Below, piece after piece: positions 8,484-31,021 of a DNA stretch of 49,368 nucleotides. The translations under genes were made by a program, and so were the position numbers. The DNA lies in the NCBI GenBank assembly GCA_022775005.1, contig JALFJR010000100.1:1-49368 (forward strand), given 5' to 3'. Below the pieces are notes generated by a model that made no database searches, was not told where the DNA came from, and was given only the letters and a program-made list of their open reading frames with translations. Numbering within the stretch: position 1 is the stretch's first letter; each line of letters starts with the position of its first letter. The DNA comes from Parabacteroides sp. (lineage in GTDB: Bacteria > Bacteroidota > Bacteroidia > Bacteroidales > Tannerellaceae).

Positions 8484-8526
8484 CAACAACTCTTTGAAAC
8501 GAAATGTTCCAAATCACATAGATAAT

Positions 8527-8551: not shown

Positions 8552-8571
8552 TTTTTGACCTTTTAGATGGA

Positions 8572-11409
8572 TTAGGATCGGCTGATTTGCAATCCCTGTC
8601 CAGACAGTCCCATTTCTACAAAACGTGCGTTTGCGTTGGGTGGGGTGGCAGTCAATAGCTGGCGAATGCGTGCGGCTGCTTCTGGATCTTTAGCTACGAT
8701 ATACAGATAACCTCCTCCTCCTGCACCCGGTAGCTTATAGCCTAAAGCATAGGGGTGAATTAAGCGAATGATCTGTTCGATGGCGGGTGGATTCGTGCCC
8801 GCATCGAGGGCTTTGTTCTGTGCCCATGTCTTTCCAACCAACTTTCCGTAGGTCTCAAAATCACCTTGTTGAATCGTCTCGAATAGATCCAGTGCATGCG
8901 ACTTCATCTCACTGAGCAGGTGAAGGTGCGATCCGCTGTTGAGGAACATGCCTCGTACGATCTCGGCCAAGATACCTTTGGCGGTACGGGTAATACCCGT
9001 ATAATAAAGTAGGTGACAGGCTTTGTAGGCAGGATCGGTAAACAGGTATTCAGGTAACCAACGTACCACAGGACTTTGATTGAAACCTTCACTGGTTTGC
9101 AGCAATTTCAGCCCGTGCAACACTCCTCCATATTGGTCTTGCCAGCCACCGCCGGTAGTGAGTAATTGTTCCAAAATTAAGGTCCGGTTGCCAATCTCAT
9201 TTTTGTCCCAAGCTAATCCACAGAAATCAGATATAGCTCCTAATACAGTCGCTGCTAAAATGGAGCTGGTGCCTAATCCTGAGCCTGTTGGAATAGCCGC
9301 CAAGAGGGTGACTTCCAAGCCACAGCCGAAGGCTTTGAGTTGAGCTTCTAATGAGGTGAAACGTTCGGCTGCGAACTCAGGCAAAAAACCGGCTAATGCT
9401 AAAGCTGCTTTCGGAATCGAGAAAGGAGAGCCTACCTTATTATATTGGCGCAACTCTTCCCAGGTCTGGATGACCTCCATTGCGCCCAAGTCAATGGAGC
9501 GAAGAATAATCTGTGGTGTGTGAGAAGGTTTCACATAGACTTGTAAAGGCGGTTGCCCATTCAGCTCAATCGCTATGTTTACCACATTACCACCTGCATA
9601 GAGGCAATAGGGGGGGGTGTCGGTCCAACCTCCGGCTAAGTCTATACGAACCGGACTGCGTCCCCAAACGATCTGATCCGGATAGACATTCAGGTGCAGA
9701 GCTTGTTTATCTGCCACGATGGAGGCGACTAATCCCTCTCGCAGTAGAGAGAAGGCAGTCTGTTCTTCCCATTCGTATGGCTGATGTTGTAGCTTCATCA
9801 CTTGTGCTCGGAACATGTGATTGTGAATCCGTTTCAGCAGGGGTTGTGTCTCACTTAATGCAGGGGGTAGCGGGATCTCAGCTTGGGCAAATGCGGTAGC
9901 TGCATCGGCTAAGTCCAACTGATAGAATACGCTCTTCTCCTGGTTTTGGGCTAATAATGTCCAATCAGCCTGTCGGAAAGCCTCTCGTTGTGCTACCAAG
10001 CGTTGGAGATTGGCTCGGTCGGAAATCTCATTAGCAGATACCTTCTCAGCTTGGAGCCATAAGGCTTTTCCTTCCGTGAGGTTAGGCTCGCTGATCATCC
10101 AACGTAAGACTGTGCCTAACGCCTCTACCGTTTGACAAACCGGGAATAGGGGGGCGTTCTGAATATCAGCAGATGCAGGAAGCGTTATGTCTCGGTCGGT
10201 TGCCCATGCTTGGATAGATTGCCCCATAAAGCGGGTGGCATGATCTTGCAGTGCCCCTTTGAAAAGATCGTTGAACCCATAGGGACGGGCTACCCATGCC
10301 TGCTCTTCCCAAGGCACGACATCCACACAAACCCCTTCCGGTAGGGAAAGTGCCCAATCATTTTGGGGTACGCCAGTGATGATCTGCTTGTTGCGTAATA
10401 TCCAATGTGCTCCGATATAGCTGTTTTCGATCCATATCTCAGAGTTGTCTGCCGTAAGTTTATACTGAGACAAGGCGTTTTGCACGAACATGGCCGGATG
10501 CGGTTTCACTTTGCGTTGCATGATGGCTCGTTGATCACGCACCAAGTTCTGTACGGCTAACGTAGAGGAAAGTAACTCTCGGCTGGTACCATAATGGTAG
10601 AATTCTCCACCAGGAAGAGGTAGGATTGCTACTCGCAAGCTGTTTAATTCCGGATCCTCCAAGGTTGGATGTGTACCCAACGCCAATCCAAATTCGCCAT
10701 AGAGGTCATAACAACGTAGTTGTTGTCCGTCTGCGGTATAGGAACGCTTGCGTAATAGAGACACTGCTCGGTCGCTCAATAGCCAGATACCGATGTCCAT
10801 CAAGAAGAGATGGCTTCCCGACAGTTCGCTCAACCGCTCTAATGAGGGTTTTTGCAGCATGAAATCCAATTGATCGGGATGAAGGCTGGAGGAGACAAAT
10901 ACACCATGATTGCATGCCAATGAGGGATCGACCCATAATCCGTAGCAGACAACATCCACTTCTGGGATTTCCTGTAAAGGCTCTGTGGCGCGGATGAAGA
11001 CATCTCCACTTGCGATTAATGTATGTAGGTGTTCAGGAGCTTTTTGCATGATGTGCTCGTAGAGTGGCAATTGGAGGGAGAGCAGGTTCTGCGAGAGGCG
11101 TTGGCCCCGCGCCCAACGAAAGACAGGAATAGGTGTCAAGATCTTTCCTGAAGGGGCGTAAGCGGGCAACCGCCGACTTTGTCCACCGGCATGAAGCAGG
11201 ATGCGCTTCTCTTTACAAAGCCATTCGTCAAAATCCATGACTGTTGTTTCTTCTTGACAGGCAGCCTCTAACAACCAAGTCGTACCGCCTCCTGAGCCCA
11301 ATCGAGCCCCGATTGGGTCTGCGGTGCAAAACCATTCCGAACGATCAACTTTCTCTATATTGTGGAAGCAATCCACCAGATTGGGTGGTAATGACAGTAA
11401 TTTTCTCAT
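8572..11409 (-). CDS. fkp: Bifunctional fucokinase / L-fucose-1-phosphate guanylyltransferase
   Basis: A 945-residue protein closely resembling Fkp of Bacteroides fragilis (about 949 residues). The N-terminal half is the GDP-L-fucose pyrophosphorylase with LGSGGGTTWLL (residues 37-47) and HAGGQSRRLPAYAPSGK (73-89). The C-terminal half is a GHMP kinase with WGRSPVRIDLAGGWTDTPPY and the ATP loop PTGSGLGTSS (707-716). It turns scavenged L-fucose plus ATP and GTP into GDP-fucose, which feeds fucosylation of capsule and surface glycoproteins. The frame is open to an ATG at 11451, but the promoter (11460-11429) has its predicted start near 11422, so the ATG at 11409 is chosen. Confidence 0.95.
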   Translation of the reverse strand: MRKLLSLPPNLVDCFHNIEKVDRSEWFCTADPIGARLGSGGGTTWLLEAACQEETTVMDFDEWLCKEKRILLHAGGQSRRLPAYAPSGKILTPIPVFRWARGQRLSQNLLSLQLPLYEHIMQKAPEHLHTLIASGDVFIRATEPLQEIPEVDVVCYGLWVDPSLACNHGVFVSSSLHPDQLDFMLQKPSLERLSELSGSHLFLMDIGIWLLSDRAVSLLRKRSYTADGQQLRCYDLYGEFGLALGTHPTLEDPELNSLRVAILPLPGGEFYHYGTSRELLSSTLAVQNLVRDQRAIMQRKVKPHPAMFVQNALSQYKLTADNSEIWIENSYIGAHWILRNKQIITGVPQNDWALSLPEGVCVDVVPWEEQAWVARPYGFNDLFKGALQDHATRFMGQSIQAWATDRDITLPASADIQNAPLFPVCQTVEALGTVLRWMISEPNLTEGKALWLQAEKVSANEISDRANLQRLVAQREAFRQADWTLLAQNQEKSVFYQLDLADAATAFAQAEIPLPPALSETQPLLKRIHNHMFRAQVMKLQHQPYEWEEQTAFSLLREGLVASIVADKQALHLNVYPDQIVWGRSPVRIDLAGGWTDTPPYCLYAGGNVVNIAIELNGQPPLQVYVKPSHTPQIILRSIDLGAMEVIQTWEELRQYNKVGSPFSIPKAALALAGFLPEFAAERFTSLEAQLKAFGCGLEVTLLAAIPTGSGLGTSSILAATVLGAISDFCGLAWDKNEIGNRTLILEQLLTTGGGWQDQYGGVLHGLKLLQTSEGFNQSPVVRWLPEYLFTDPAYKACHLLYYTGITRTAKGILAEIVRGMFLNSGSHLHLLSEMKSHALDLFETIQQGDFETYGKLVGKTWAQNKALDAGTNPPAIEQIIRLIHPYALGYKLPGAGGGGYLYIVAKDPEAAARIRQLLTATPPNANARFVEMGLSGQGLQISRS

Positions 11410-16283: not shown

Positions 16284-18461
16284 ATGAAGAAATTAGGCAT
16301 GGGCTTGTTACTCTCTTTGCTTGTGGTAGGAGGTGTAACGGCACAGAATGGCAACAAACGTGTAGAACTAAAAGAGATAACAGACGGGAAGTTCCGTCAG
16401 GTAACGGCAATTGGCGAGATGCGCTCCCTGCCCGATGGAGAGCATTACACGGCGATGAATGCGGAGCGAGATATGATCATCAAGTATGCGTATCGCACCG
16501 GTAATCCAGTGGATACACTTTTCAACGCACGGAAGGCTCGGGAGTGTAACTTTACCAATTTCGATGGCTATGAAATCAGTAGCACAGGACATCATATTCT
16601 GGTGTGGCGGGAAACGGAGTCTATTTATCGTCGCTCTCGCAAAGCGGTTGTGTATGACTATGACGTGCGTCGTAACTACGTGAAACCGATCTCTGACACG
16701 GGTGGCAAGCAGATGATTCCTACCTTCTCTCCCGATGGTCGCATGGTGGCCTATGTGAAGGATAACAACATCTGGATCCGTAAGTTTGACTACGATACGG
16801 AGGTGCAGGTGACGAAAGACGGCGAGCGCAATAAGATCATGAATGGCATTACCGATTGGGTGTACGAGGAGGAGTTTGCGGTGACAAACTTGATGGCTTG
16901 GTCGCCGGATAGCGAATACCTGACCTTCGTTCGTTCGGACGAGAGTGAGGTGCCCGAATATTCCATGCAGATGTATAGTGGCAATGGGCTTTATCCCACC
17001 TATTATACCTATAAATATCCGAAAGCTGGCGAAAAGAACTCAAAGGTGACTGTGCATTCTTATTGCGTGGCGACGAGAGACACAAAAGAACTGAAATTGC
17101 CGATGGAGGGTGAGTATTATATTCCTCGTATCACTTTTACAGCACATTCGGATCAGTTGGCGGTTATGACCCTGAATCGTCAGCAAAATCTGTTTAGCAT
17201 GTATTATGCCAACCCGAAGAGCGGGGTCTTTCGGTTGATCTTGCGGGAGGAGAACAAGTGTTATGTGGATTCCGATTGGTTGAAGTCGATCCATTTCATG
17301 GACAATGGCTTTACCTACGTCAGTGAGCAGGATGGCTATGCGCATGTCTATCTTTATTCGCCGACGGGTGTGATGCAACGCCAGATCACGCAGGGCAACT
17401 GGGACGTGACCGCTTTCTTGGGTTTCGACGAGGCCACAAAGACCTGCTACTATGAGTCGGCTGAGGAGAGTCCGATTCGCCGGGCGATCTATAAGATCGA
17501 TGCCAAGGGCGTAAAGACCAAGTTGACCGATGGTGTGGGTACGAATCATGCGGATTTCAGCCGTAATTTCGCTTATTTCGTGAATACCTATTCCAATGCC
17601 AATACTCCGGCTCGCATCACGGTGAATGAGACGAAAACGAAAAAAGAGTTACGTGTCTTGCAAGATAACGCGCCGCTGCGTAACAAACTGGCGCAATATG
17701 CTTTCGCTAAGAAAGAGTTTACGAAAGTCACCACGGCCTCTGGCTATGAGTTGAATGCCTGGATGGTGAAGCCGGTTGATTTTGATCCCTCTAAGCGTTA
17801 TCCGGTGATGATGACGCAATACAGCGGTCCCAACTCACAGCAGGTGCTGGATCAATATGGCTTTGACTGGGAACAATACCTGGCCGCTAACGGCATCATC
17901 GTGGTGTGTGTGGATGGTCGGGGAACCGGTGCGAGGGGTGAGGCTTTCCGAAAATGCACCTACCTGCGTATGGGCGAGTTGGAGTCACGAGATCAGATAG
18001 AGGCAGCTCGGGCATTGGGTGAGTTGCCCTATATCGACAAGGATCGAATCGCCATTTGGGGTTGGAGCTTCGGCGGCTACAACACGCTGATGGCGTTGAG
18101 CACAGGCAATGGTACCTTTAAGGTTGGTATTGCTGTGGCTCCTCCTACGGATTGGCGCTATTACGACACGATCTATACCGAACGTTTCATGCGCACACCG
18201 CAGGAGAACTTCGAGGGGTATAAGGCCACAGCTCCCTTGAATTTGGTGAAGAACCTGCAAGGTAAGTTGCTCTTGGTGCATGGCACGGCTGACGACAATG
18301 TCCATTTCATGCAGAGCTTGGATTATGCCGAGGCATTGGTACAAGCAGGAAAGCAGTTTGATATGCACGTCTATAAAGATCGCAATCACAGCATTTACGG
18401 TGGCAACACCCGTTACCACCTCTATACCAAGATGGCGAACTACCTGTTTGAAAACCTATAA
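16284..18461 (+). CDS. Dipeptidyl peptidase IV (S9 family)
   Basis: A 725-residue exopeptidase with a signal peptide (MKKLGMGLLLSLLVVGGVTA, cleavage near AQ). An eight-bladed propeller carries the substrate N-terminus binding motif DWVYEEEF (Glu195-197). The alpha/beta-hydrolase domain has the nucleophile GWSFGGY (Ser595), the acid in GTADDNV (Asp670/671) and the base in DRNHSI (His702). It removes X-Pro or X-Ala dipeptides from peptide N-termini, probably in the periplasm, and suits a peptide-using organism. Its length is the usual one for bacterial DPP IV. lipA starts 4 bases after its stop. Confidence 0.94.
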   Translation: MKKLGMGLLLSLLVVGGVTAQNGNKRVELKEITDGKFRQVTAIGEMRSLPDGEHYTAMNAERDMIIKYAYRTGNPVDTLFNARKARECNFTNFDGYEISSTGHHILVWRETESIYRRSRKAVVYDYDVRRNYVKPISDTGGKQMIPTFSPDGRMVAYVKDNNIWIRKFDYDTEVQVTKDGERNKIMNGITDWVYEEEFAVTNLMAWSPDSEYLTFVRSDESEVPEYSMQMYSGNGLYPTYYTYKYPKAGEKNSKVTVHSYCVATRDTKELKLPMEGEYYIPRITFTAHSDQLAVMTLNRQQNLFSMYYANPKSGVFRLILREENKCYVDSDWLKSIHFMDNGFTYVSEQDGYAHVYLYSPTGVMQRQITQGNWDVTAFLGFDEATKTCYYESAEESPIRRAIYKIDAKGVKTKLTDGVGTNHADFSRNFAYFVNTYSNANTPARITVNETKTKKELRVLQDNAPLRNKLAQYAFAKKEFTKVTTASGYELNAWMVKPVDFDPSKRYPVMMTQYSGPNSQQVLDQYGFDWEQYLAANGIIVVCVDGRGTGARGEAFRKCTYLRMGELESRDQIEAARALGELPYIDKDRIAIWGWSFGGYNTLMALSTGNGTFKVGIAVAPPTDWRYYDTIYTERFMRTPQENFEGYKATAPLNLVKNLQGKLLLVHGTADDNVHFMQSLDYAEALVQAGKQFDMHVYKDRNHSIYGGNTRYHLYTKMANYLFENL

Positions 18462-19445: not shown

Positions 19446-20642
19446 ATGATGAATGAGCAAAGTGTAAACGCTATGAATAAGGTCAAACGAAATCTGGATA
19501 ATCAGGTGATCGGCTTGTTGCCGTTGATATTGTTCATGTTCCTGGACAATTACTTCTCTTACCTGTTTTCGTTTTTCATTGCGATCTCATTCTGCATGTT
19601 CTGTGTTTTTATCTATTGGCGTTTAAAGGAGAAGAACGTGTTTCAGTTTATGTTCCTCCCCACGATCTTAACGTTTTTGCTCTATACCTGCTTCTTCTTA
19701 TTCCGGGTGCGTACGACGTTGTTTGGCCATTCGCCTTTGATCATAGAGGTGCTCTTGGTGGTTTCGTTGGCCCTGTTTAGTTTCAGTAAACGTGCCGTGT
19801 TGCACTATGTACGTCATTCGAATAACCCCACTTATAAACGGATGTATGTACGTGCCACCTTAAATGAGTTCTTCTTTTTGGCGCAATTGGCACAAAGTAT
19901 TTACACGTTGCATCTGTTCGCTATATTAATATATGGTATATTGCCTATGGAGATGCACCGCAACCCAGCGGCAGAACGGTTGCTTTATCGGGAGATGCCT
20001 TGGTTCTTGGGTATCTCATTACTGATCTATGAGCAGATCCGTGTCTTTTGGATGAGTGGCAGTTTGGAAAAGGAGATGTGGCTCCCTGTGCTGAATGATG
20101 AGGGGAAAGTGGTGGGCTGTATGGCTCGCTCGGTCAGCCGTGCCTTGCCCAAGAAGTATTACCATCCGGTCATTCGTGTGGCTGTCTTGTACCGAGGGTT
20201 GATTTACTTGGTGAAACGTTCGTCAGAGGATTTCGTCTCGTCTAATACATTGGATCACCCGCTCCATGGCTATATGCTGTTTCGTCATTCCCATGAGGAC
20301 ACTTTACGTGCGATTTTAGGCACATTGGCTGACGATCCACTCATCGAGCCCCATTGCCTGATTCGTTATACGTTTGAGTCGCATCGGGTAAAGCACCTCG
20401 TTTTTCTCTATACCATTCGTTTGGAGACAGTGGAGCAGTTAGCAGAGGTGAAGCAACCGGGCGGTAAGCTATGGACCGCCAAGCAAATCAAGGAGAATAT
20501 CGGGAAGCATGTTTTCAGTGGCTATTTTGAGCAGGAATACCCTTATTTGCAGAATACGGTGATGCTGGCCGACATTGAAAAACCAATCAATCGACAGAAA
20601 TGTCATTTTCCCTGTAACGATTCGCTGAGGCGCATGGAATGA
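19446..20642 (+). CDS. Membrane protein with C-terminal Nudix-like domain
   Basis: A 398-residue protein, not recognised as a named family. Residues about 18-205 hold five or six hydrophobic segments (for example QVIGLLPLILFMFLDNYF and LFAILIYGILPM). From about 212 the protein is soluble and resembles the start of a Nudix hydrolase: LPVLNDEGKVVGCMARS, then HPVIRVAVLYRGLIYLVKR, then a helical region. The Nudix box (GX5EX7REUXEEXGU) is not recognisable, so catalysis is doubtful. It may be a nucleotide-sensing membrane protein. It precedes the peptide-export operon by 312 bases, but that operon has its own promoter, so linkage is uncertain. ATG 19446 and ATG 19449 are both possible. Confidence 0.6.
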   Translation: MMNEQSVNAMNKVKRNLDNQVIGLLPLILFMFLDNYFSYLFSFFIAISFCMFCVFIYWRLKEKNVFQFMFLPTILTFLLYTCFFLFRVRTTLFGHSPLIIEVLLVVSLALFSFSKRAVLHYVRHSNNPTYKRMYVRATLNEFFFLAQLAQSIYTLHLFAILIYGILPMEMHRNPAAERLLYREMPWFLGISLLIYEQIRVFWMSGSLEKEMWLPVLNDEGKVVGCMARSVSRALPKKYYHPVIRVAVLYRGLIYLVKRSSEDFVSSNTLDHPLHGYMLFRHSHEDTLRAILGTLADDPLIEPHCLIRYTFESHRVKHLVFLYTIRLETVEQLAEVKQPGGKLWTAKQIKENIGKHVFSGYFEQEYPYLQNTVMLADIEKPINRQKCHFPCNDSLRRME

Positions 20643-20954
20643 AAGCGCAGGTGAACCGCTGGGCAGCACGTGGAGTCTGAACGGAAAGCTTCGAGATGCT
20701 TTCGAGATACGTTCGAGAGCAGTTGCGGTAGGATTGGGAGATGGCTGAGTAGAGCGAACAGTTGCCGAACAACCTGCCTCCCTTTCCGGAAGTGATCGAG
20801 CAGCGATCATACGGCAAGCAATGGGAACCGTTGTTCGAGGCTCAGCCTTCATGAATGAATGGCTGCGAAGCTCATTGAGCCAATGGAAAACATCGGTCTA
20901 TCCGTTGTTCGAAAGAAAAGAAATGTGTATGTTTGCCGAACATTTAGATAGACC
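20643..20954. promoter_or_regulatory. Intergenic region before the export operon, with repeated short motifs
   Basis: A 312-base gap rich in short repeats. TTCGAGA occurs three times at an exact 11-base spacing (20690, 20701, 20712). GTTGTTCG occurs at 20830-20837 and 20904-20911 and inverted at 20773-20766. CCGTTGTTCGA is a longer direct repeat (20828, 20902), and TTGCCGAACA occurs at 20762 and 20933. The last copies overlap the -33 and -7 boxes of the operon promoter. A 6-base hairpin TGATCG/CGATCA lies near 20793-20809. A 45-codon frame (20821-20958) ends in an ATGA overlap with the next gene but resembles nothing known. No GG-type leader peptide was found here. Confidence 0.5.
20905..20935 (+). 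promoter_or_regulatory. Promoter of the peptide-export operon
   Basis: TTG (20905-20907), a 20-base spacer, then TATGTTTG (20928-20935), an exact -7 match at canonical spacing. Transcription should start near 20942, 13 bases before the ATG at 20955, so the C39-like/VKOR gene is the first gene of the operon. Confidence 0.7.
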
Positions 20955-22388
20955 ATGAATCCTTTTCTTGATATTATGAACGGGTTAGGCATACGTTGCA
21001 ATGAATCGTATGCAAAAGACCTTTTTTATGCGCAAGGCATGGGATTTACGCTGTTGGGCATCAAGCGCATGCTGGAGCACTACGGGGTGAAAGTGCAAGC
21101 CGTGCATGCGGAAAAGAACACGTTGGATGGTCTTCCTTTTCCTTTGGTGTGTGAATGGGATGGGCTGGTGAGGCTCTTCACTGCTCCTCCTGCTGATCTT
21201 GACGCCTTTTATGCGCAGTGGAACGGCTATGCGTTGTTGTGTGATGCTTCCGATGCGCAAGAACCTCATTATTGGTCTCATTTTTTCTGTGAGAAAGGGT
21301 TGATCGCCATTTCGTGGGCGGTCAAGGTGCTGGGTGTGCTGACGCTGCTTGGCTTTTTGGTTGCGGATTTTGCTTGGGAGCGGGTGGCGTTGGTGCTGTT
21401 CAATTCGATTGGTCTCTATTTTAGTTATCGGTCAGTCATGCAGGAGTGTTCGGGTAGTTGCCATACGGTTACCGCATCAGCCGGTGGCAAACTCTTGGGA
21501 CGCTTTAGCTTAGGTGTCGTGGGTATGGCTTATTTCGGGGTATCGTTGTTGCCTACGCTGTTTGTGCCTGCTTGGCTCCCCCTTTGGCGTTGGATAGCCC
21601 TGATTGCTTTGGTCATGCCGCTTTGGAGCGTTTGCTATCAGGCATTTGTGGTCAAGGCGTGGTGTAAGAATTGCCTCATTGTGCAAGCACAAGTATGCGC
21701 TTCTGCCCTTGTCGTGGGGGTGGCAGGAGGCGACTGGAAAAGTATGGATTCTCTCGTTTGGGTGGCATTGCCAGCGATTTATCTGGGGGCTTTGCTGTTG
21801 TTAGATCGGGTGGTTTGGCTTTATCAGCAAGTGGCGCATCCGAAAACACCGGATGCTTGGTTAGCTTTGATGGCTGATCCTCAGCTTCGGCAACGCATCT
21901 TGACCGCAGGGCAGACGGTTGACACCTCGGACATGGTTGATTTGCTGACGCTGCATCCGGATGGTAAGGAGGAACTCTGCGTGGCACTCAGCTTGACTTG
22001 TTCCTATTGTAAAACCCATTTTCAAAGATTGTTGGAGCATGTGCGTCGGGGTGAGTTAGCTAACTACCGTATTCGCATTGCAATCAGTCCAGATGCACCC
22101 AGGTTAGCCGTTGTGCGTGAGTCGATTGCAGCCAGCGCTTTGCAGGAAGGCGCTTTAGCGGCTTGCCTGCATTTGTCAGCCTGGTATGCGTCTGAACGGG
22201 TGAAGCGGTTTCTGCGTACCCTTCCTGAGATCTTGGATTTAGCTGCAGTGAGAGCCCCGTTGGCTGCGCAGGCAGAAGCGGTCGCACGGTGGCAACTGCG
22301 TAGCTTACCCGCTTTTGTGCTGAATGGGCATGTCGTGGCACAGGAGGTGTTTTGGACCGTAATAGAAAGAACGAATCAATCGAAATAA
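20955..22388 (+). CDS. C39-like / vitamin K epoxide reductase / thioredoxin fusion protein
   Basis: A 477-residue three-part protein. Residues 1-110 resemble the inactive C39-like domain found at the front of Bacteroidetes VKOR proteins (FTLLGIKRMLEHYGVKVQAV, then LPFPLVCEWDG) and have no catalytic Cys-His pair. Residues about 115-300 are a VKOR-type membrane bundle with loop cysteines Cys165/Cys169 (ECSGSC) and the active CxxC WCKNC (Cys237/Cys240). Residues about 330-477 are a thioredoxin-like domain with CSYC (Cys349-Cys352) and a cis-Pro at LPAFVL. It should pass electrons from periplasmic thiols to quinone, making disulfides. The HlyD gene follows after 7 bases, suggesting that it oxidises exported peptides. 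Confidence 0.85.
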   Translation: MNPFLDIMNGLGIRCNESYAKDLFYAQGMGFTLLGIKRMLEHYGVKVQAVHAEKNTLDGLPFPLVCEWDGLVRLFTAPPADLDAFYAQWNGYALLCDASDAQEPHYWSHFFCEKGLIAISWAVKVLGVLTLLGFLVADFAWERVALVLFNSIGLYFSYRSVMQECSGSCHTVTASAGGKLLGRFSLGVVGMAYFGVSLLPTLFVPAWLPLWRWIALIALVMPLWSVCYQAFVVKAWCKNCLIVQAQVCASALVVGVAGGDWKSMDSLVWVALPAIYLGALLLLDRVVWLYQQVAHPKTPDAWLALMADPQLRQRILTAGQTVDTSDMVDLLTLHPDGKEELCVALSLTCSYCKTHFQRLLEHVRRGELANYRIRIAISPDAPRLAVVRESIAASALQEGALAACLHLSAWYASERVKRFLRTLPEILDLAAVRAPLAAQAEAVARWQLRSLPAFVLNGHVVAQEVFWTVIERTNQSK

Positions 22389-22395
22389 AAAGAAT

Positions 22396-23220
22396 ATGGC
22401 AAATAAACTTTTTCGCCAACAGGCAATAGATACGGTCGATTCGCCGGATAAGATCAATGACTACATCCGGGTGACGGCTCCCTCATTCTATTTGTGGCTG
22501 CTTACGTTGCTGATCGGTGTGCTTTCGGCTGCCGTTTGGGCGTTCAACAGCACGGTGAGTGATTTTGTGAAGATTCAAGGGGTCACCTTCCCTCATCAAG
22601 GCATTCAGGAGGTAAGTGCCCCGTTTGGTGGGCGGATCACGGAGCTTTTCGTGCATAAGGGTCAGCTGGTGAAGCCGGGCGATCTGCTGTTTCGCTACAT
22701 GGACGACCAGGCTATCCGGGAGTTGCTCAGTCGCCAATCGGGGGTGGTGATGGGGCAAAAGCCTCCACAGACCACCTTCAGCGCTTATGAGCCGACTATT
22801 TTCCTCATTCCTGAGGGACAGGAGGATCACATGCGGGAGATGATCGCTTTCGTGACCTATGCCGATTTGCGGAAATTGAAAGTAGGCATGAGCGTGCAGG
22901 CTACCCCTTCCGATTTGAAGCGGGAGGAGTATGGCTACATGTATGGACGCATCACAGACATCGATCGCCTCCCCACTTCGAAAGAGGAGATCGAGCAACT
23001 GTTTAAGTTGAGTGAGTTTAGTGGCTCGATCGTTCCTTCGGAAACGGCTTTCATGGTGAAGATCCTGTTGGATGCTGACCCGAACAGTTCGGATGGTATC
23101 CGCTGGTCGCAACGGTCGAGTCGCCAGGTGCGTGTGCCAATCGGTACCTTCTGCCAACTACAAATCGTGACTCGTACCCGTCCTGTATTTGACTTGTTAT
23201 TTAAAAAAGACGCTAAATAA
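22396..23220 (+). CDS. HlyD-type membrane fusion protein, NHLM export family
   Basis: A 274-residue adaptor. The N-terminus (LFRQQAIDTVDSPDKINDYI then RVTAPSFYLWL) follows the pattern of NHLM bacteriocin system secretion proteins (TIGR03794). One membrane segment spans about residues 32-54. A biotinyl-lipoyl-like hairpin follows (VSAPFGGRITELFVHKGQLV then KPGDLLF), and the C-terminal beta part has VGMSVQATPSDLKREEYGYM and IGTFCQLQI. It lacks the long coiled-coil hairpin of TolC-contacting HlyD proteins, so how it reaches the outer membrane is unclear. It lies 7 bases after the VKOR gene and 12 bases before the peptidase ABC gene. Confidence 0.85.
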   Translation: MANKLFRQQAIDTVDSPDKINDYIRVTAPSFYLWLLTLLIGVLSAAVWAFNSTVSDFVKIQGVTFPHQGIQEVSAPFGGRITELFVHKGQLVKPGDLLFRYMDDQAIRELLSRQSGVVMGQKPPQTTFSAYEPTIFLIPEGQEDHMREMIAFVTYADLRKLKVGMSVQATPSDLKREEYGYMYGRITDIDRLPTSKEEIEQLFKLSEFSGSIVPSETAFMVKILLDADPNSSDGIRWSQRSSRQVRVPIGTFCQLQIVTRTRPVFDLLFKKDAK

Positions 23221-23232
23221 GCGAACGTGACC

Positions 23233-25368
23233 ATGGGAAAGGTGAAGAAGGTGCCAATGGTGATGCAGATGGAGATGGTGGAGTGTGGTGCCGCCTCTTT
23301 AGGCATGGTGTTGGCGTATCACAAGAAATGGTTGCCCTTGGAGCAGCTCCGCAAGGATTGTGGCGTGTCGAGAGATGGATGCTCAGCCAAGCAGTTGCTG
23401 CAAGCAGGACGCTCCTACGGTATGAAAGCCTCCGCTTATCGGTTGGAACCGAATGACTTAGATGGGCTGGCTCCTGCCATTATCCATTGGAATTTTAACC
23501 ATTTCGTGGTTTATTGTGGTCATCGGGGTGATACCTTTTATATCAATGATCCAGCACGTGGCAAGTGTCAGATACCTCGGGAAGACTTCTGCAAGTCGTT
23601 CACGGGGATTGCCTTGGCCTTTGAGCCGACGGCTGATTTTCACCCGAGTGGACAACGTGCTTCGGTATTAGGTTTCATTCGTCGAAGAATGCGCAACACG
23701 GGTGCTGCCCTGTTCTACTTCTTTGTAATCGGTTTTTTGACCGCTTTGGTGGGATTGACCACACCGCTCTTCTCTCAGCTCTTCATGGACGATATCCTCA
23801 GTGGAAAGAATCCGGATTGGTTGAAACCTTTCATGGCTGCCTTCGGGGCGGTCATCGTCGTACAGTTCATTATCGGTTGGTTGAGTGGCGTTTACAGTCG
23901 GAAGTTTCAGGCATCTATGGCTATAGAGTCTAATGTGAACTTCTTTTGGCATGTGCTTCGCTTACCAATGGACTTCTTCTCACAGCGTTATATAGGTGAT
24001 TTGCTCTTCCGACAGCGCTCTAACCAAGAGATTACTTCTACGTTGGTGCAAAAGCTGGCACCTTTAGCGGTTCAGTTGATGCTCTTGGTCATCTATTTGC
24101 TGTGCATGTGGAGTTATAGTGTCTCACTTACGGTAATTGGTTTGGGGTCAATGTTGCTAAATATACTTCTTGCCCGATACATTGCGCAGCGACGGGTGGA
24201 TTTGACCCGTATCTCGGAGCGGGATGCCGGTAAATACTATGGTGTGACGATGTCGTGTCTCGACAATATGGAGACAATCAAGGCCGCCGGAGCAGAAAGT
24301 GGATTCTTTGGTCATTGGGTAGGATACTTTACCAATATGCACAATGCTGAGATGCGTACCAGCTTCAGCAACTTGGTTTTTGGCATTTTCCCACAGGTGC
24401 TGCAAACGCTTACCAGCAACCTGATCTTGTTTGTCGGTGTCTCTTTGATTATGGATGGAGAGTTCACGATCGGTATGTTGATGGCTTTTCAAGGTTTCTT
24501 GAGCGGCTTTATGAATCCGGTTAGCAGCTTGATGTCGGCAGGTGAGATGATGATCGAGATGCGTACACAGATGGAACGGGTAGAAGATGTAATGCGTTAT
24601 CCGACAGAGCAACGCACGCAGCAAGTGCGTATGGATAGCTCCGGCAAACTGAGTGGCAGGTTGGAATTGCGCCATGTGACTTTTGGCTATAACAAGTATT
24701 CCGCACCACAGATCAAGGATTTCTCTGTTTCGCTGAAACCCGGACAAAGCGTAGCGTTGGTTGGCTCCTCGGGTTGTGGCAAGAGTACCTTGGCCAAATT
24801 GGTGACAGGGCTCTATCGTCCATGGGAGGGAGAAATTCTGTTCGATGGCAAACCGGTAGATCAGATTGATGCGGATGAGTTTTCCAATTCTGTGGCATTG
24901 ATTGATCAGCATGTGGTGATGTTTGACGATACGATCACTGCCAACATTAAGATGTGGGATTCCTCCATTGAGGATTTTGCCATGGTATTAGCTTGCCGGG
25001 ATGCGCATATCCGGGAGGAAATCATCGCACGTCCGGAAGGATATAACACCCGGTTGGTGAAGGGCGGAAAAAATTTCTCGGGCGGACAGTTGCAGCGGAT
25101 GGAGATCGCTACGGCGTTGGCGCGCGAACCAATGATCTTGATCATGGATGAGGCGACCAGTGCCCTCGACGCTACCACCGAGCAGCGCATCATGCAAGCG
25201 GTGAAACGGGCAGGGTGTACTTTGATCGTCATCGCCCATCGACTTTCAACCATTCGAGATTGTGATGAGATTATCGTCTTGGACAAAGGCGATGTAGTGG
25301 AGCGAGGGACGCATGATACGTTGCTGGCGCAAGGTGGTGTATATGCCCGACTGATGGAAAGTGATTAA
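23233..25368 (+). CDS. Peptidase-containing ABC exporter (C39), NHLM type
   Basis: A 711-residue PCAT. The N-terminal C39 peptidase has the oxyanion Gln12, the nucleophile Cys18 in MEMVECGAASLGM, His90 in WNFNHFVVY and Asp106 in INDPARG, so it looks active and should cut leaders at a double-glycine-type site during export. A six-helix ABC membrane domain spans about 150-440. The ATPase has Walker A GSSGCGKST (511-519), signature FSGGQLQRME, Walker B ILIMDEATSALD and the switch His in IAHRLS. It matches TIGR03796 in architecture and context. A GTG at 23227 would add two residues; the ATG at 23233 is preferred. Confidence 0.9.
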   Translation: MGKVKKVPMVMQMEMVECGAASLGMVLAYHKKWLPLEQLRKDCGVSRDGCSAKQLLQAGRSYGMKASAYRLEPNDLDGLAPAIIHWNFNHFVVYCGHRGDTFYINDPARGKCQIPREDFCKSFTGIALAFEPTADFHPSGQRASVLGFIRRRMRNTGAALFYFFVIGFLTALVGLTTPLFSQLFMDDILSGKNPDWLKPFMAAFGAVIVVQFIIGWLSGVYSRKFQASMAIESNVNFFWHVLRLPMDFFSQRYIGDLLFRQRSNQEITSTLVQKLAPLAVQLMLLVIYLLCMWSYSVSLTVIGLGSMLLNILLARYIAQRRVDLTRISERDAGKYYGVTMSCLDNMETIKAAGAESGFFGHWVGYFTNMHNAEMRTSFSNLVFGIFPQVLQTLTSNLILFVGVSLIMDGEFTIGMLMAFQGFLSGFMNPVSSLMSAGEMMIEMRTQMERVEDVMRYPTEQRTQQVRMDSSGKLSGRLELRHVTFGYNKYSAPQIKDFSVSLKPGQSVALVGSSGCGKSTLAKLVTGLYRPWEGEILFDGKPVDQIDADEFSNSVALIDQHVVMFDDTITANIKMWDSSIEDFAMVLACRDAHIREEIIARPEGYNTRLVKGGKNFSGGQLQRMEIATALAREPMILIMDEATSALDATTEQRIMQAVKRAGCTLIVIAHRLSTIRDCDEIIVLDKGDVVERGTHDTLLAQGGVYARLMESD

Positions 25369-25391
25369 CTGAGACAAACAGACGAGGAATC

Positions 25392-27569
25392 ATGTTGCTA
25401 TTCAAGGAACAGATAGATAAACGAGAGGAAAAAGAGAAACAGCATCTGCAAGAGGCGGTGGAACAACTGGTCGGCGAATCTGGGTTACACAGCCGACAGA
25501 TGAGGCAAGCATTTTCTCAGGGGCAAGCTATCCAGTGCATCTTGGAGGCGCTGGGTGTGCCTGGGCCAATCGAGTTGGATGAGGAGGAGACCTTCCTCTC
25601 TTTGGAAGAGCAGATCGAGCAGAAGCTTGCGCCCTTAGGCATCATGCATCGAACTGTGGAACTGAAAGGGCAGTGGTGGCGATCATCGGTTGGGCCTTTA
25701 CTGGGCAAGAACAGGCAGGGACAGTATGTCGCTTTGCTACCGAAGCGTTTCGGTCAAGGCTATACCTATGTGGGTGTGACTGGTAAGCAAATGTCAGTCA
25801 ATCGCCAGCGGATGAGTGAGGAGCTGATCGAGGAGGCCATCTGTTTCTTCCCCGCATTACCGCAACGTTCGGTCAAACTTACTGACCTGCTTCTCTTCAT
25901 GGCAGGAGCTTTCCATTGGAATGACCTATTGAATCTGCTCTTGATCTCGTTGCTTATTACAGGCATCGGTATGTTAGGCCCTTTTGCCAACAAGATGCTG
26001 TTCGACAGTGTGATTCCGAATGGCACAAAGCAGGATTTGATACCGATCGCCTCGCTTTTGATCGGAACGGCTATCAGTGGTTTGCTTTTTGGGTTGATCC
26101 GTAGTTGGACTTTGCAGCGGCTGAAGTTCTTGGTCAGTGTTCGTGTGGAACCTGCGGTGATGGCTCGTACCTTTCTCTTGAAGGCGAAGTTCTTCATGGA
26201 ATATACCTCGGGTGAGTTGCATGAGCGCATCATGAGTATCAGCCGCCTTTGTGACTTGGCCAATGACATATTGGTGAGCAGTGCGCTCACGGTGCTTTTC
26301 TCTTTTGTCAATCTCTTCCAGATGACGCACTATGCAGCCGCCCTGTTGATGCCTTCGTTGGCCGTGATAGGTGGGCAATTTGTGTTGACCTTGGCGCTCT
26401 TTTGGTTTCAACAGCGACAAGAGGCACAGATAGTGAAGAGTTCAGCCAAGTTGAGTGCTTTGCTGTTCGACCTGTTGAGCGGTGTGCAAAAGATCAAGAC
26501 TTCCGGCTCGGAAAAAAGGGCTTTTACGCGCTGGATGCAGACCTATAAGGAGAATGCTCGGTTGACCTATAATCCCCCCTTGCCTCTAAAACTATCTGAG
26601 GCAGTGATGGGATTGATCAACTTAGGCGGCATGGCCGTTATCTATTTCATGGCTGTCAGCAGCAAGGTTTCCCCCTCCGATTTCATTGCCTTCAATACCT
26701 CTTATGGGTTAGTGGCTGGTGCCTTTTCGGCGTTGATAGGTATTGTGCCTCAGATTGGTCAGATGCGTCCGTTGTTGCGTCAGGCGAAACCCATTATGGA
26801 GGCAGAGCCAGAGAGTATGGAGAATGCTAAGCAGGTCACTCATTTAAGTGGAGCCATTGATGTGAATCATCTCTCTTTCCGTTATGATGAGGAGACACCT
26901 TGGGTGTTGAATGATTTGAGTTTACACATTCATTCAGGTGAGTATGTCGGTGTTGTGGGACGTTCAGGTTGTGGAAAGAGCACGCTTCTCCGTCTGTTAC
27001 TGGGTTTTGAGACCCCCCAGTTTGGGAATATTCTGTATGACGATTATGAACTCTCAGAGGTGAATAAGAGCAGTTTGCGTCGGCAGATCGGAACCTGCTT
27101 GCAAAGCGGAAGCCTTTTTCCGGGCGATGTGTTTAGTAACATCACGATCACAGCACCTTGGAGTAGTAAGGAGGATGCCTGGGAGGCTGCTCGGTTAGCG
27201 GGTATTGCGGATGACATCAAGGCGTTGCCTATGGGCATGAACACGTTGATCAGCGAAGGGGGAGGTGGCTTCAGTGGTGGACAGAAGCAACGGCTGTTGA
27301 TAGCACGTGCCTTGGTCAATCGGCCGGCCATTCTTTTCTTTGACGAGGCAACCAGCGCTTTGGATAACGTGAGCCAAAAGCAGGTGTCGGAGAACCTGGA
27401 TCGTATGGGATGTACCCGTATCATCATTGCGCATCGCCTGTCAACGATCCGTCATTGCGACCGGATCATCGTGCTCGACAAAGGAGTTATCGTCGAGGAG
27501 GGAACCTTTGATGAATTGCGAGAGAAGGGAGGCCTATTTGCGGACCTGATGAAACGGCAGACGCTGTAG
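25392..27569 (+). CDS. Second ABC exporter of the NHLM system
   Basis: A 725-residue ABC half-transporter without a peptidase. The N-terminal ~160 residues form a soluble domain (GQWWRSSVGPLLGKNRQGQY, then VALLPKRFGQGYTYV) like that of NHLM ABC proteins of TIGR03797. Membrane helices lie at about 175-450. The ATPase has Walker A GRSGCGKST (523-531), signature FSGGQKQR, Walker B AILFFDEATSALD and IAHRLST. It probably pairs with the C39-containing protein 23 bases upstream as a heterodimer. It ends 5 bases before the convergent phosphoesterase gene, so no further gene of the operon can follow. Confidence 0.88.
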   Translation: MLLFKEQIDKREEKEKQHLQEAVEQLVGESGLHSRQMRQAFSQGQAIQCILEALGVPGPIELDEEETFLSLEEQIEQKLAPLGIMHRTVELKGQWWRSSVGPLLGKNRQGQYVALLPKRFGQGYTYVGVTGKQMSVNRQRMSEELIEEAICFFPALPQRSVKLTDLLLFMAGAFHWNDLLNLLLISLLITGIGMLGPFANKMLFDSVIPNGTKQDLIPIASLLIGTAISGLLFGLIRSWTLQRLKFLVSVRVEPAVMARTFLLKAKFFMEYTSGELHERIMSISRLCDLANDILVSSALTVLFSFVNLFQMTHYAAALLMPSLAVIGGQFVLTLALFWFQQRQEAQIVKSSAKLSALLFDLLSGVQKIKTSGSEKRAFTRWMQTYKENARLTYNPPLPLKLSEAVMGLINLGGMAVIYFMAVSSKVSPSDFIAFNTSYGLVAGAFSALIGIVPQIGQMRPLLRQAKPIMEAEPESMENAKQVTHLSGAIDVNHLSFRYDEETPWVLNDLSLHIHSGEYVGVVGRSGCGKSTLLRLLLGFETPQFGNILYDDYELSEVNKSSLRRQIGTCLQSGSLFPGDVFSNITITAPWSSKEDAWEAARLAGIADDIKALPMGMNTLISEGGGGFSGGQKQRLLIARALVNRPAILFFDEATSALDNVSQKQVSENLDRMGCTRIIIAHRLSTIRHCDRIIVLDKGVIVEEGTFDELREKGGLFADLMKRQTL

Positions 27570-27574
27570 TCGCC

Positions 27575-28075
27575 TCAGCAGTGGCGATTTCCCAACTCGA
27601 TCACCTCTAAATCTTTGATCTCTTTTCCGTCAATGGTGAAGCGCATGAGGGTGCGTACTTGGTGGAAGCCGCTGATACCTGCCGCTCCGGGGTTCAGGTG
27701 AAGACAGTTCAGGCTTCGGTCGAACTGAGCCTTTAGGATGTGGGAGTGGCCGGCGATGAACAGCTGGGGGCGAACGGCATACAACAGCGGACGGATCTCC
27801 GGGTTGTAGCGTCCCGGATAACCACCGATATGCGTCATCACTACCTCCACCTCTTCCACCTTGAACTGTGCTACCTTGCCGTATTGCAACCGAATGGGCT
27901 GTCCATCGGTATTGCCATAGACCGCTCGGAATGGTTTCAGCGCTGCCAAACGCTCGGCTAATTCTGGAGAACCAATGTCTCCTGCATGCCATATCTCATC
28001 GCATTCGTTGAAATAGAGGGCGTATTTTTCATCCCAAAAACCATGCGTGTCTGAAAGTAATCCAACTTTAACCAT
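27575..28075 (-). CDS. YfcE/MJ0936-like metallophosphoesterase
   Basis: A 166-residue calcineurin-like phosphodiesterase with all metal-binding motifs: LLSDTHG (residues 6-12), HAGDIG, VYGNTDG, VMTHIGGYPG and AGHSHILK. It hydrolyses phosphodiesters in vitro in characterised relatives; the physiological substrate is unknown. It converges on the second ABC gene with only 5 bases between the stops and no visible terminator, so the two transcripts probably overlap. Its start is 57 bases from the divergent polyphosphate kinase gene. Confidence 0.9.
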   Translation of the reverse strand: MVKVGLLSDTHGFWDEKYALYFNECDEIWHAGDIGSPELAERLAALKPFRAVYGNTDGQPIRLQYGKVAQFKVEEVEVVMTHIGGYPGRYNPEIRPLLYAVRPQLFIAGHSHILKAQFDRSLNCLHLNPGAAGISGFHQVRTLMRFTIDGKEIKDLEVIELGNRHC

Positions 28076-28079
28076 AATC

Positions 28080-28127
28080 TTGCGCTTTATTGAGCGAAAG
28101 TAGTTATTTTTACGCGTCGAAGAACAA
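28080..28127. promoter_or_regulatory. Overlapping divergent promoters, phosphoesterase and ppk1
   Basis: Plus strand: TTG (28080-28082), 22 bases, TATTTTTA (28105-28112) before ppk1. Minus strand: TTG (28127-28125), 22 bases, TACTTTCG (28102-28095) before the phosphoesterase. Both are one base off the -7 consensus. They interleave within the 57-base gap, so the two polymerases should compete. Confidence 0.35.
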
Positions 28128-28132
28128 TTATC

Positions 28133-30211
28133 ATGGAAAACGTTTACCGATATTTCAAAAGAGATGTTAGTTGGCTATCATTCAACTATCGTGTATTGTT
28201 GGAGGCGGAAGATGCTTCGCTCCCTATTTATGAACGCATCAAATTCCTCTCTATCTATTCATCCAACTTGGAGGAGTTCTATGAGATTCGGGTGGCAGAG
28301 CACCGGGGCGTGATCATGCAGAAGAATTTTGTGGAGGAAAGTGCGGATGAGGCGGAGGAGACCTTGGCGGCCATTACGCATGAGGTGAATCGGCAGCAGC
28401 GAGAATATTATCGTATTTTTTACGAACAGATCCTTCCGGAGCTGAATCGTCAGCATATTTTCTTGTATCAAGATGAGCATCCGCAACCATTCCATGAGGA
28501 GTTTGTGCGTGACTTCTTCAACGAGGAGGTTTTCCCTTTCCTTTCGCCTGTCATGATCCAAGCGGGAGAGATCCGCACCTTCATCCGTGATCGACGGCTT
28601 TATTTGGTCATTCGTATGGTGAAGAAGGGTAGGCCTTTGGAAGATCCGGGGGATGTTCCGACTTATCATTATGCCTTGATGAAGATTCCTTTTTCCAAAG
28701 TTCCTCGGTTCATCGAGTTGCCACCGCATGAGGGGAAATACTACATCATGTTTATCGACGATATTATCCGGGCCAACCTGCAAAGTGTCTTTCCCGGTTA
28801 TGAGATCGACAGCTGTTATAGTATTAAGATATCGCGCGATGCGGATATTTACTTGGAAGATGAGGGGAAGGGAAGTATCTTGGAAAAGATCCGCAAGAAG
28901 GTGAAAAAAAGAAAGATTGGTGCGTTGAGTCGTTTCATGTATGACCAGGCGATGCCCGCTGATTTCTTGGCTTTCATCTGCGAGGCGTTTGGTATTCTAC
29001 CGGATGATTTGGTGGTGGGAGGCCGTTATAATAACTTGCAAGACCTGAGTAAATTACCTAATCCCGCAGGCAAGCAATTGGAGCAGCATCCATCCTTGCC
29101 AATGCGTATTCGATCTTTGGATGAGGTGGGTTCAATATTTAAGGTGATAAAAAAGCGGGATGTGATGCTACATTTTCCCTATGAGTCGTTTGACTACTTG
29201 ATTCGTTTCTTGATGGAGGCGGCTTTTGACCCGAAGGTTGATGAGATTAAGATTACGCAATACAGGGTGGCAGAGAACTCTGCAGTCATCAATACGCTGA
29301 TTAGTGCGGCGCAGAATGGCAAGAAGGTGACCGTTTTCGTCGAGCTGAAAGCGCGCTTTGACGAGGAGAACAATATGCGTACGGCAGCGCGTATGGAGCA
29401 GGCTGGAATCAAGATCATATACAGTATCCCCGGTTTGAAGGTGCATGCGAAGGTGGCGGTTATCTTGCGTAAAGACAATGCGCAAGGGGTGAAGCGCCGG
29501 GATTTCGCCTACCTCAGTACAGGTAATTTTAATGAGAAGACAGCGAAGATTTATGCTGACATGGCGCTGTTGACCTGTCAGGAGGAGATTATCGCCGATA
29601 TTAATAAGGTCTTTGCCGTGTTGGAGGGACGCTTGCAGGCACCTACTTTCCACCACTTGTTGGTGGCTCGTTTCAACATGGTGCCTGAGTTGCGGCGCAT
29701 GATACAATGCGAGATTGACCATGTACAAGCTGGAGGTAAGGGGTATATCATCTTGAAGATGAATGGCCTGCATGATCAGCAAATGATTGATATGCTTTAT
29801 CGAGCCAGTGAGGCGGGCGTAAAGATTGATTTGATTGTGAGAGGAATCTGTTGCTTGGTTCCTGATCAGCCTTACAGTCAGAATATCCGGGTAACTCGCA
29901 TCGTTGATATGTTCTTGGAACATGCTCGTATCTGGTATTTCTATAACGAAGGACAAGAGGTGCTTTTCTTGACCTCTGCTGACTGGATGCGTCGCAACCT
30001 CAATCGACGGATCGAGACTGCATTCCCGATCTTGGATCCAGAGATCAAGCAAGAGGTGATTGACATCTTGCATATTCAGTTGCGAGACAATGTGAAAGCT
30101 TGCCGCTTAGATAGTGAGTTGCGCAACTGCTTTAAGCGGGAGAGTGACATGCGGGAACCGGTGCGTGCGCAACAGGCAATCTATGACTATTTGAAACAGA
30201 AAAATCAGTAG
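28133..30211 (+). CDS. ppk1: Polyphosphate kinase 1
   Basis: A 692-residue PPK1 that reversibly makes polyphosphate from ATP. The N domain has RDVSWLSFNYRVL and SIYSSNLEEFYEIRV. The catalytic histidines lie in GLKVHAKVAVIL (His438, the autophosphorylated residue) and LEHARIWYF (His597). Also present are YLSTGNFNEKTAKIY and GICCLVP. Its length is normal for the family. The membrane-anchored HTH-like gene starts 5 bases after its stop and is probably in the same operon, which hints at regulation connected with polyphosphate or stress. No ppx gene is in the window. Confidence 0.95.
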   Translation: MENVYRYFKRDVSWLSFNYRVLLEAEDASLPIYERIKFLSIYSSNLEEFYEIRVAEHRGVIMQKNFVEESADEAEETLAAITHEVNRQQREYYRIFYEQILPELNRQHIFLYQDEHPQPFHEEFVRDFFNEEVFPFLSPVMIQAGEIRTFIRDRRLYLVIRMVKKGRPLEDPGDVPTYHYALMKIPFSKVPRFIELPPHEGKYYIMFIDDIIRANLQSVFPGYEIDSCYSIKISRDADIYLEDEGKGSILEKIRKKVKKRKIGALSRFMYDQAMPADFLAFICEAFGILPDDLVVGGRYNNLQDLSKLPNPAGKQLEQHPSLPMRIRSLDEVGSIFKVIKKRDVMLHFPYESFDYLIRFLMEAAFDPKVDEIKITQYRVAENSAVINTLISAAQNGKKVTVFVELKARFDEENNMRTAARMEQAGIKIIYSIPGLKVHAKVAVILRKDNAQGVKRRDFAYLSTGNFNEKTAKIYADMALLTCQEEIIADINKVFAVLEGRLQAPTFHHLLVARFNMVPELRRMIQCEIDHVQAGGKGYIILKMNGLHDQQMIDMLYRASEAGVKIDLIVRGICCLVPDQPYSQNIRVTRIVDMFLEHARIWYFYNEGQEVLFLTSADWMRRNLNRRIETAFPILDPEIKQEVIDILHIQLRDNVKACRLDSELRNCFKRESDMREPVRAQQAIYDYLKQKNQ

Positions 30212-30216
30212 CCGTG

Positions 30217-30885
30217 ATGGAGATGTTTTGGATGGATTTCGGTTTTTTCGGGCTCTGCTTGTTGCTTCTTGGCGTAGCCGTGATGGCCTACCTGTTGGGA
30301 CGTCAATCAGGGAGCCTCAAGGAACGCAATCGGCAGGCCCGGGCACGCTGGTTGAACTACAAGTCAGAGCGTTATGAGCTGAAGAAGAGCGTGCGGATCC
30401 ACCGAGAGATGATCGAGGATATGACGGAAGAGTTGAAAGGCTATGCGCAGCAATCAAAGGACTATGAGGAGACGCAGGAGGAGTTGACCTACTACCGTCA
30501 AGAGGTGGAGCGCTTGGAGCGACAATTGCGCTTGAAGCCGGAGGAGCCTTCTCTGGAATCCACCTTTCGGAACAGCTCCTTTGATTTGATCAATGCTATG
30601 CATGAGGATCCGCTGCACGTTAACTTGACCCGTAAGGATTGGGAAGAGCTCTTTAGTGGTATGGATCGGCTTTTTCCCTCCTTCATGTCACAATTACGGG
30701 TGCTGAAAGTGACTCGTCATGAATTGGAAATCTGCTGTCTGATCCGACTCCATTTCGAGCGGGCAGAGATGTTGCAGTTGTTCCATTGCACCTTCGAGGC
30801 ACTGACAAAATCCCGGAATCGCTTAAAGAAGCGGTTGGCGTTGGTCGAAGGACAGAGTCTGGAGGACTATTTGCTGCATTTATAG
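30217..30885 (+). CDS. Membrane-anchored coiled-coil protein with HTH-like C-terminus
   Basis: A 222-residue protein without a named family. Residues about 5-28 are one membrane segment (FGFFGLCLLLLGVAVMAYLL). Residues about 35-110 are highly charged and should form a coiled coil (EMIEDMTEELK, QEELTYYRQEVERLERQLRL). The C-terminal ~80 residues (FPSFMSQLRVLKVTRHELEI, then LIRLHFERAEML and SRNRLKKRL) resemble the LuxR-like helix-turn-helix that ends many Bacteroidetes TPR regulators. It could be a membrane-tethered transcription factor. A GTG at 30214 is an alternative start. Co-transcription with ppk1 is likely. Confidence 0.6.
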   Translation: MEMFWMDFGFFGLCLLLLGVAVMAYLLGRQSGSLKERNRQARARWLNYKSERYELKKSVRIHREMIEDMTEELKGYAQQSKDYEETQEELTYYRQEVERLERQLRLKPEEPSLESTFRNSSFDLINAMHEDPLHVNLTRKDWEELFSGMDRLFPSFMSQLRVLKVTRHELEICCLIRLHFERAEMLQLFHCTFEALTKSRNRLKKRLALVEGQSLEDYLLHL

Positions 30886-31021
30886 GGGCTTGGCAGGATT
30901 AGATTGTCCACCTGAAAGCCATATTTGAGGCTATGATTTGTTGTAAAATGTTGAAATATAGCAGTTAATCCTCCGGCCTATTTGTCCGGTCACATTCTTA
31001 GGTTGTTTCTTCGCAAAGCTC

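Follow-up and report, generated by a model that had tools for sequence, protein, structure and literature searches.

The window analysed here, a stretch of 49,368 nucleotides, is the whole of contig C91 of a Parabacteroides sp. genome (G000; 3.14-Mb assembly, 109 contigs, 97.86% complete) and contains a four-gene operon in which a VKOR oxidase gene precedes the genes of a putative three-part peptide exporter. The original prediction, made from the letters of the window, had described four tightly packed genes for a VKOR-thioredoxin fusion, an HlyD-like adaptor, a C39-peptidase ABC exporter and a second ABC exporter, separated by gaps of 7, 12 and 23 bases, and both the coordinates and the domain matches agree with this description. 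Hereby, the gaps refer to the ATG at 23233 as start of the third gene; with the GTG at 23227 the second gap is 6 bases. The four genes are as follows.

20955..22388, forward strand: VKOR oxidase with a C39-like segment, a VKOR domain and a thioredoxin-like part (477 amino acids; domain matches and cysteine motifs)
22396..23220, forward strand: short HlyD-like adaptor (274 amino acids; TIGR03794 130.7 bits, below the cut-off of 156.2)
23227 (GTG) or 23233 (ATG)..25368, forward strand: C39 peptidase ABC exporter (713 or 711 amino acids; TIGR03796 897.0 bits)
25392..27569, forward strand: second ABC exporter without a peptidase match (725 amino acids; TIGR03797 681.4 bits, below the cut-off of 709.4)

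The adaptor and both ABC proteins had been assigned to the NHLM three-component set, with these three models named as a check. One of the three proteins passes, namely the C39 exporter (cut-off 853.3 bits). The adaptor and the second ABC protein stay below their cut-offs, yet each is still matched best by its NHLM model, and no type 1 or drug-exporter model matches better. The assignment was thus overstated for two of the proteins, and the operon is, as far as model scores can tell, a divergent NHLM-type exporter with one component as a formal member. The second ABC protein is also short, with 725 amino acids compared to 918-971 in four other operons of the order. In the C39 exporter the catalytic residues Cys18, His90 and Asp106 are present as originally named, counted from the ATG and assigned by motif position (Cys20, His92 and Asp108 from the GTG). 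Its Peptidase_C39 match (115.2 bits, cut-off 22) covers profile positions 2-132, with the catalytic Cys near the profile start and the His and Asp near its end. A PDB search matched residues 5-708 of the exporter to the C39-containing bacteriocin transporter 4ry2, which we take to be PCAT1; many drug-transporter chains rank higher, but match by the ABC parts only.

The oxidase likewise begins with a C39-like segment (29.3 bits, cut-off 22). Since this match covers only positions 21-84 of the 133 profile positions, the segment appears to lack the catalytic residues; it may bind leaders instead. The VKOR domain PF07884 barely exceeds its cut-off (27.7 versus 27.5 bits) and is accompanied by the CXXC and loop cysteines expected of a VKOR protein (Cys165/169 and Cys237/240). 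A third cysteine pair is found at Cys349/352, and the thioredoxin-like motif reads CSYC. A PDB search with the whole fusion gave no match at E <= 0.1.

A scan of genome contigs returned two relatives, L037 on a contig of G034 (an uncultured Parabacteroides metagenome-assembled genome, 84% complete) and L038 on a contig of G028 (Parabacteroides distasonis An897). Their VKOR proteins are 95% and 94% identical to that of the window, and their operon proteins overall 94-97%. In L038 a 54-residue open reading frame (ORF; 8776-8940) is followed by a 306-residue GNAT gene (8980-9900) and by the VKOR gene at 10001; L037 has the same order with a peptide of 53 residues. Both relatives thus carry a peptide gene directly upstream of GNAT-VKOR-HlyD-ABC1-ABC2, and each linked peptide contains four cysteines and a leader that ends in GG. 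In the window, blastn skips from position 20604 (L038 8660) to 20639 (L038 9412), leaves another gap of some 270 bases, and finds no counterpart in the window for the peptide gene (L038:8776-8940) or the 5' part of the GNAT gene. Because the skipped parts are kept in the relatives, the missing linked cargo gene is best read as a probable deletion in the lineage of the window, on which the two relatives agree in a comparison without an outgroup. Two features remain upstream of the operon.

20639..20854, forward strand: remnant of the GNAT gene with an internal deletion and stops (blastn and alignment with L037 and L038)
20910..20960, forward strand: conserved block with a TAnnTTTG box at 20928-20935, a possible operon promoter (51 of 51 bases identical in the window, L037 and L038)

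The observation that the window holds no linked cargo gene was borne out. A scan for ORFs of 35-130 amino acids outside larger ORFs, with a GG, AG or SG leader and at least two later cysteines, gave a single ORF, which lies antisense in the GNAT remnant; as the peptide profiles described below also have no match in the window, a cargo gene hidden there was rejected. A strong promoter predicted at 20905-20935 gained no support, in that a sigma-70-type scan of 20600-28200 yielded 7 promoter-like sites versus 7.0 expected and none at that position. The TAnnTTTG box, presumably the Bacteroidetes promoter element, lies within this stretch, and the identity of 20910-20960 in three genomes is compatible with a kept promoter. 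Next to the deletion, the C-terminus of the protein encoded at 19446-20642, which has no Pfam or NCBIfam match, extends 16 residues past the stop of its An897 orthologue (382 amino acids).

Paralogues of the linked peptides are encoded elsewhere, apart from the operon, in the window's genome and in those of both relatives. A profile built from three peptides, one of them the copy on contig C33 of the window's own genome, whose score is therefore not independent, was run against 38 genomes of the genus. Ten matches at E < 1e-6 fall in nine places in three of these genomes: G000 accounts for two of the places (one of them read in two frames), G028 for four (one interrupted by a stop) and G034 for three; the remaining matches lie at E >= 0.069 in 11 further genomes, so that 14 of the 38 had some match at E <= 1. 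Both copies of the window's genome are on C33 and unlinked to the operon, one of them intact and one frameshifted. Read from an internal ATG, the C33 ORF gives a 64-residue peptide whose leader ends in SDEELQQVSGG and which shares the cysteine spacing of the linked An897 peptide, with one more cysteine in addition to these four. In an alignment of six members, four cysteines are common to all and the fifth is present in three; the spacing C-x8-C-x5-C-x8-C fits four, and the leaders comprise 20-24 residues. A further copy, L091 (contig C14 of G028, 30767-30907, reverse strand), contains an internal stop, and no copy was detected in G000 of the peptide type carried on C11/C194 by G028 and G034.

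The double-glycine bacteriocin leader model TIGR01847 weakly matches four of the six members (best E 0.0033), and the Lactococcin-like and PSI Pfam models reach best E values of 0.0014 and 0.0024; no Pfam or NCBIfam model can be said to claim the family with confidence. A PDB search with the peptide profile returned nothing below E 1. Leader positions -4, -7 and -12 are V, L and V in four of the six members, and the two operon-linked peptides share the L at -7 and the V at -12 but carry T or A at -4. According to passages of PMC6363468, these are the positions bound by the C39 protease LahT150, which still processes a V-4T mutant leader. Four copies, of which G000 has two and G028 and G034 one each, have a stretch of about 290 bases in common, which reaches from roughly 55-60 bases ahead of the start to some 35 past the stop. 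They occur in three different settings (L087, L088, L089, L092), as if this stretch had spread as a cassette. The TAnnTTTG box lies upstream of three of the seven copies that have enough upstream sequence. Phage and plasmid origins of the peptides were rejected (best E 6 for the linked An897 peptide against phages, 1 for the C33 peptide against plasmids). So was a wider family in the order: among 393 genomes, a sample drawn from a larger group whose listed matches do not include G028 and G034, the profile is strong in G000 only, and three of the four weak matches elsewhere (E 8.7e-4 to 0.0091) have internal stops.

VKOR proteins at 94-100% identity occur only in G000, G028 and G034 among 78 genomes (own included), and these are the same three that hold the strong four-cysteine peptide matches. 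The original proposal that the cargo is encoded elsewhere found support, in that the suggested genome-wide search for small ORFs revealed genes co-occurring with the operon; the present lack of a linked gene is probably a loss. In keeping with the predicted disulfide-bonded product of a VKOR partner, which remains probable, the candidate peptides share four cysteines. Nine other genomes have VKOR matches at 20-33% identity in other kinds of loci, and a regular expression detected small multi-cysteine ORFs with a GG leader in 8 of the 11 stretches read. Eight loci of the same bacterial family (L025, L027, L028, L029, L030, L032, L033 and L034) combine distant C39-like/VKOR fusions with small multi-cysteine GG-leader ORFs of a different peptide type.

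No second full-length C39-ABC protein was found in the assembly of the window's genome. One TIGR03796 match, that of the operon, spans the C39 and ABC parts together, and apart from it only a short piece on contig C22 has a match beginning within the C39 part. This apparent fragment (L036, C22:54797-55087, reverse strand), a lone ORF of 96 amino acids, resembles the C39 domain of another type of exporter at its start but not further on. Of the 29 candidates scored in each of G028 and G034, the two ABC proteins of the operon are the only ones to reach E <= 1e-60, and other genomes of the genus carry further C39-ABC proteins at 26-30% identity. A double-glycine-leader peptide of G000, G028 or G034 thus has one evident exporter.

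The cargo of related exporters provides a contrast. G009 has an NHLM exporter 57% identical to that of the window, no VKOR match, and two linked, cysteine-free precursors of Nif11-like type; the one that was scanned scored 24.6 bits, below the cut-off of 32.3. The G009 precursors lie in tandem at L136:14550-15017 and 8354-9247 (both reverse strand), and the genome also has a second HlyD-like adaptor gene. G005 likewise has such an exporter and no VKOR match, and no Nif11-like precursor was found on its 8.8-kb contig. Cysteine-free cargo where VKOR is absent is a single contrast (G009) and not a statistic. More distant C39 exporters of this type are not rare: among 395 genomes of the phylum, 29 besides the window's own have one at 40-44% identity (E <= 1e-130). 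They also occur at 40-42% in the ten best plasmid records, whereas relatives of the adaptor are few and distant in the order (six other genomes of 393, 20-30% identity).

Taken together, we consider it the most likely explanation, held with reasonable though not high confidence, that a divergent NHLM-type exporter, equipped with a disulfide oxidase of its own, serves scattered double-glycine-leader four-cysteine peptides in trans. This reading builds on the anatomy of the operon, the deletion relative to the relatives, the paralogous peptide genes, their co-occurrence with the operon and the single full-length C39-ABC protein of the assembly. The C39 domain of the first ABC protein would cut the leader after GG during export, with the second ABC protein and the adaptor completing the machine. 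The VKOR-thioredoxin protein would form the disulfides of the cargo, perhaps holding the leader by its C39-like N-terminal segment. In the window's genome, where the linked peptide gene is deleted, the one intact unlinked copy would remain as cargo. Several points weigh against this explanation. We infer cleavage, export, oxidation and biological activity; when the An897 peptide by itself was searched against the window's genome, the four matches were weak, led by one on C33 at E 0.043; and the three genomes that have both operon and peptides appear to be closely related, so that their co-occurrence does not represent three independent events and is weak alone. Moreover, another exporter or cargo could be missing from an assembly of this completeness, and the system may be decaying, given the frameshifted C33 copy and a broken enzyme of the azole-type cluster described next. 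As to the original prediction, its observation is confirmed and its interpretation partly supported.

A second possible cargo is encoded on contig C59 of the window's genome, where TIGR03793 identifies two NHLP leaders over its cut-off, in the same genome as the NHLM-type exporter; one contains an internal TGA and one gene is intact. Beside them lie genes for a SagB dehydrogenase (126.1 bits, cut-off 78.4), a TIGR03882 protein (41.1 bits, cut-off 36.9) and a C-terminal YcaO piece. The An897 cluster holds seven NHLP genes and an open 719-residue ORF joining both cyclodehydratase parts. In G000 this cyclodehydratase gene is broken: the best TIGR03604 match, at one place in the genome, reaches 76 bits versus a cut-off of 219.25, and no YcaO exceeds the cut-off anywhere in the assembly. 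The original statement that there is no modifying enzyme refers to the surroundings of the operon and does not extend to the genome, in which, judged by these matches, an azole-type modifying system for ribosomally synthesized and post-translationally modified peptides does exist on another contig, partly decayed. C59 has no TIGR03796 match, and no ABC exporter was noticed in the cluster stretches read; a gene near the cluster presumably encodes a MATE-like transporter, judged by its sequence. At the expected GG site, six of seven An897 and both G000 NHLP precursors have AA, the preceding residues agree poorly, by eye, with the -4/-7/-12 pattern, and a candidate membrane protease, below model cut-offs, is encoded next to the cluster. 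The AA residues and the adjoining putative protease make processing of NHLP precursors by the window's exporter less certain.

It is possible, although doubtful, that one exporter with its own oxidase serves two cargo classes in trans, a duplicating four-cysteine family carried partly on the 290-base cassettes and azole-modified NHLP peptides, with the C39-like oxidase segment as a leader receptor directing disulfide formation. That the NHLP-leader set is instead the true cargo, the four-cysteine peptides being secondary or leaving by another route, appears unlikely. NHLP leaders over the cut-off do occur in only two of the 38 genus genomes, G000 (two genes) and G028 (seven genes), each of which carries the operon; SagB and cyclodehydratase genes belong to the cluster, in the stretches of which that were read no ABC exporter was noticed; and passages of PMC2887384 tie NHLP leaders and the three transport families by phylogenetic profiling. 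However, in G034, at its 84% completeness, operon and four-cysteine peptides occur without any NHLP match, and the poorly fitting AA sites, the cluster's own candidate protease and the broken cyclodehydratase and NHLP genes of G000 argue in the same direction.

A further alternative, the operon being a leftover whose cargo is lost and whose exporter has not yet decayed, can be judged from the ratio of nonsynonymous to synonymous substitution rates (dN/dS). Pairwise values versus the two relatives are 0.131 and 0.115 for VKOR, 0.069 and 0.061 for the adaptor, 0.056 and 0.054 for the C39 exporter, and 0.056 and 0.055 for the second ABC protein. Flanking genes give 0.016-0.084 versus L038 (five genes) and 0.047-0.051 versus L037 (two genes); the L037 values for DPP4, lipA and the 19446-20642 gene are left out, as L037 does not extend to these genes and the ORFs paired there were not homologous. 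All operon genes are open, with three within the range of the five neighbours and VKOR slightly above it. This weighs against the leftover alternative, as do the intact four-cysteine and NHLP genes, although dN/dS reports constraint over the whole separation and does not isolate the time since the deletion, which also limits its value for the preferred explanation. The deleted peptide gene, the degraded GNAT gene, the frameshifted unlinked copy, the broken cyclodehydratase and NHLP genes and the truncated C39 fragment on C22 would suit decay, but overall we regard a leftover as improbable. With a dS of 0.22-0.24 the VKOR gene is less diverged than the two ABC genes, whose dS is roughly twice as high (0.45-0.49), and than the genes at 16284-18461 and 28133-30211, where it is roughly four times as high (0.83-0.87); the 5' part of the operon may thus have undergone recombination.

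An ordinary drug or type 1 exporter that has nothing to do with peptide cargo, which the sub-threshold adaptor and second ABC protein might suggest, is very hard to reconcile with a C39 exporter 44 bits over the NHLM cut-off and with three proteins matched by NHLM models well above type 1 and drug-exporter models. A defence-system reading was rejected, since only the ABC ATPase parts match two PADLOC models.

With four-cysteine peptides as the preferred cargo, the locus exemplifies an exporter for which the search for cargo has to cover the whole genome, draws attention to a little-known Parabacteroides family of short four-cysteine peptides and suggests a link between the operon VKOR gene and the cysteine content of the cargo. 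In the open-licence literature, we found nothing joining VKOR, C39 and a precursor peptide in a Bacteroid context, nothing on NHLM with Nif11 or on Parabacteroides with YcaO and thiazole, and no paper tying VKOR to NHLP, bacteriocin and disulfide, which is not proof of absence in print.

Compared to the NHLM/NHLP exporters (TIGR03794, TIGR03796, TIGR03797), as described in parts of PMC2887384, the operon likewise joins an adaptor, a C39-ABC and an ABC protein, each matched best by its NHLM model, in a genome with NHLP leaders. It differs in the adaptor and the second ABC protein below cut-off, the latter also short, in the VKOR gene, and in a linked cargo candidate that has a short GG leader and no NHLP or Nif11 leader. 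Bacteroidetocin loci, compared by description from portions of PMC6671954, share a GG-leader four-cysteine peptide, a thiol oxidoreductase gene and a C39-ABC exporter in Bacteroidetes; the four cysteines recur in all six aligned members, but the leaders are longer (20-24 versus 15-16 residues), the operon has two ABC proteins and an adaptor, and several peptide genes are unlinked to the exporter. No gene for the five-transmembrane protein of bacteroidetocin loci was noticed beside the operon, no search being aimed at one; the same holds for a lanthionine synthetase, an arginase and a hydroxylase. Azole-type (thiazole/oxazole-modified microcin, TOMM) clusters with NHLP leaders resemble the cluster on C59 and in An897 in these leaders, the SagB dehydrogenase and the cyclodehydratase gene, and differ in that no NHLM exporter lies beside the C59 cluster and the cyclodehydratase of the window's genome is broken. 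In the phaeornamide pathway (NHLP, GNAT and PhaT1-3), PMC9505594 describes a GNAT enzyme that acylates the NHLP-derived peptide, which makes a maturation role one possibility for the GNAT of the relatives. That pathway and the operon of the relatives both bring together a leader peptide, a GNAT enzyme and an exporter of three parts, whereas the linked peptide of the relatives has no NHLP match and the GNAT gene is a remnant in the window.

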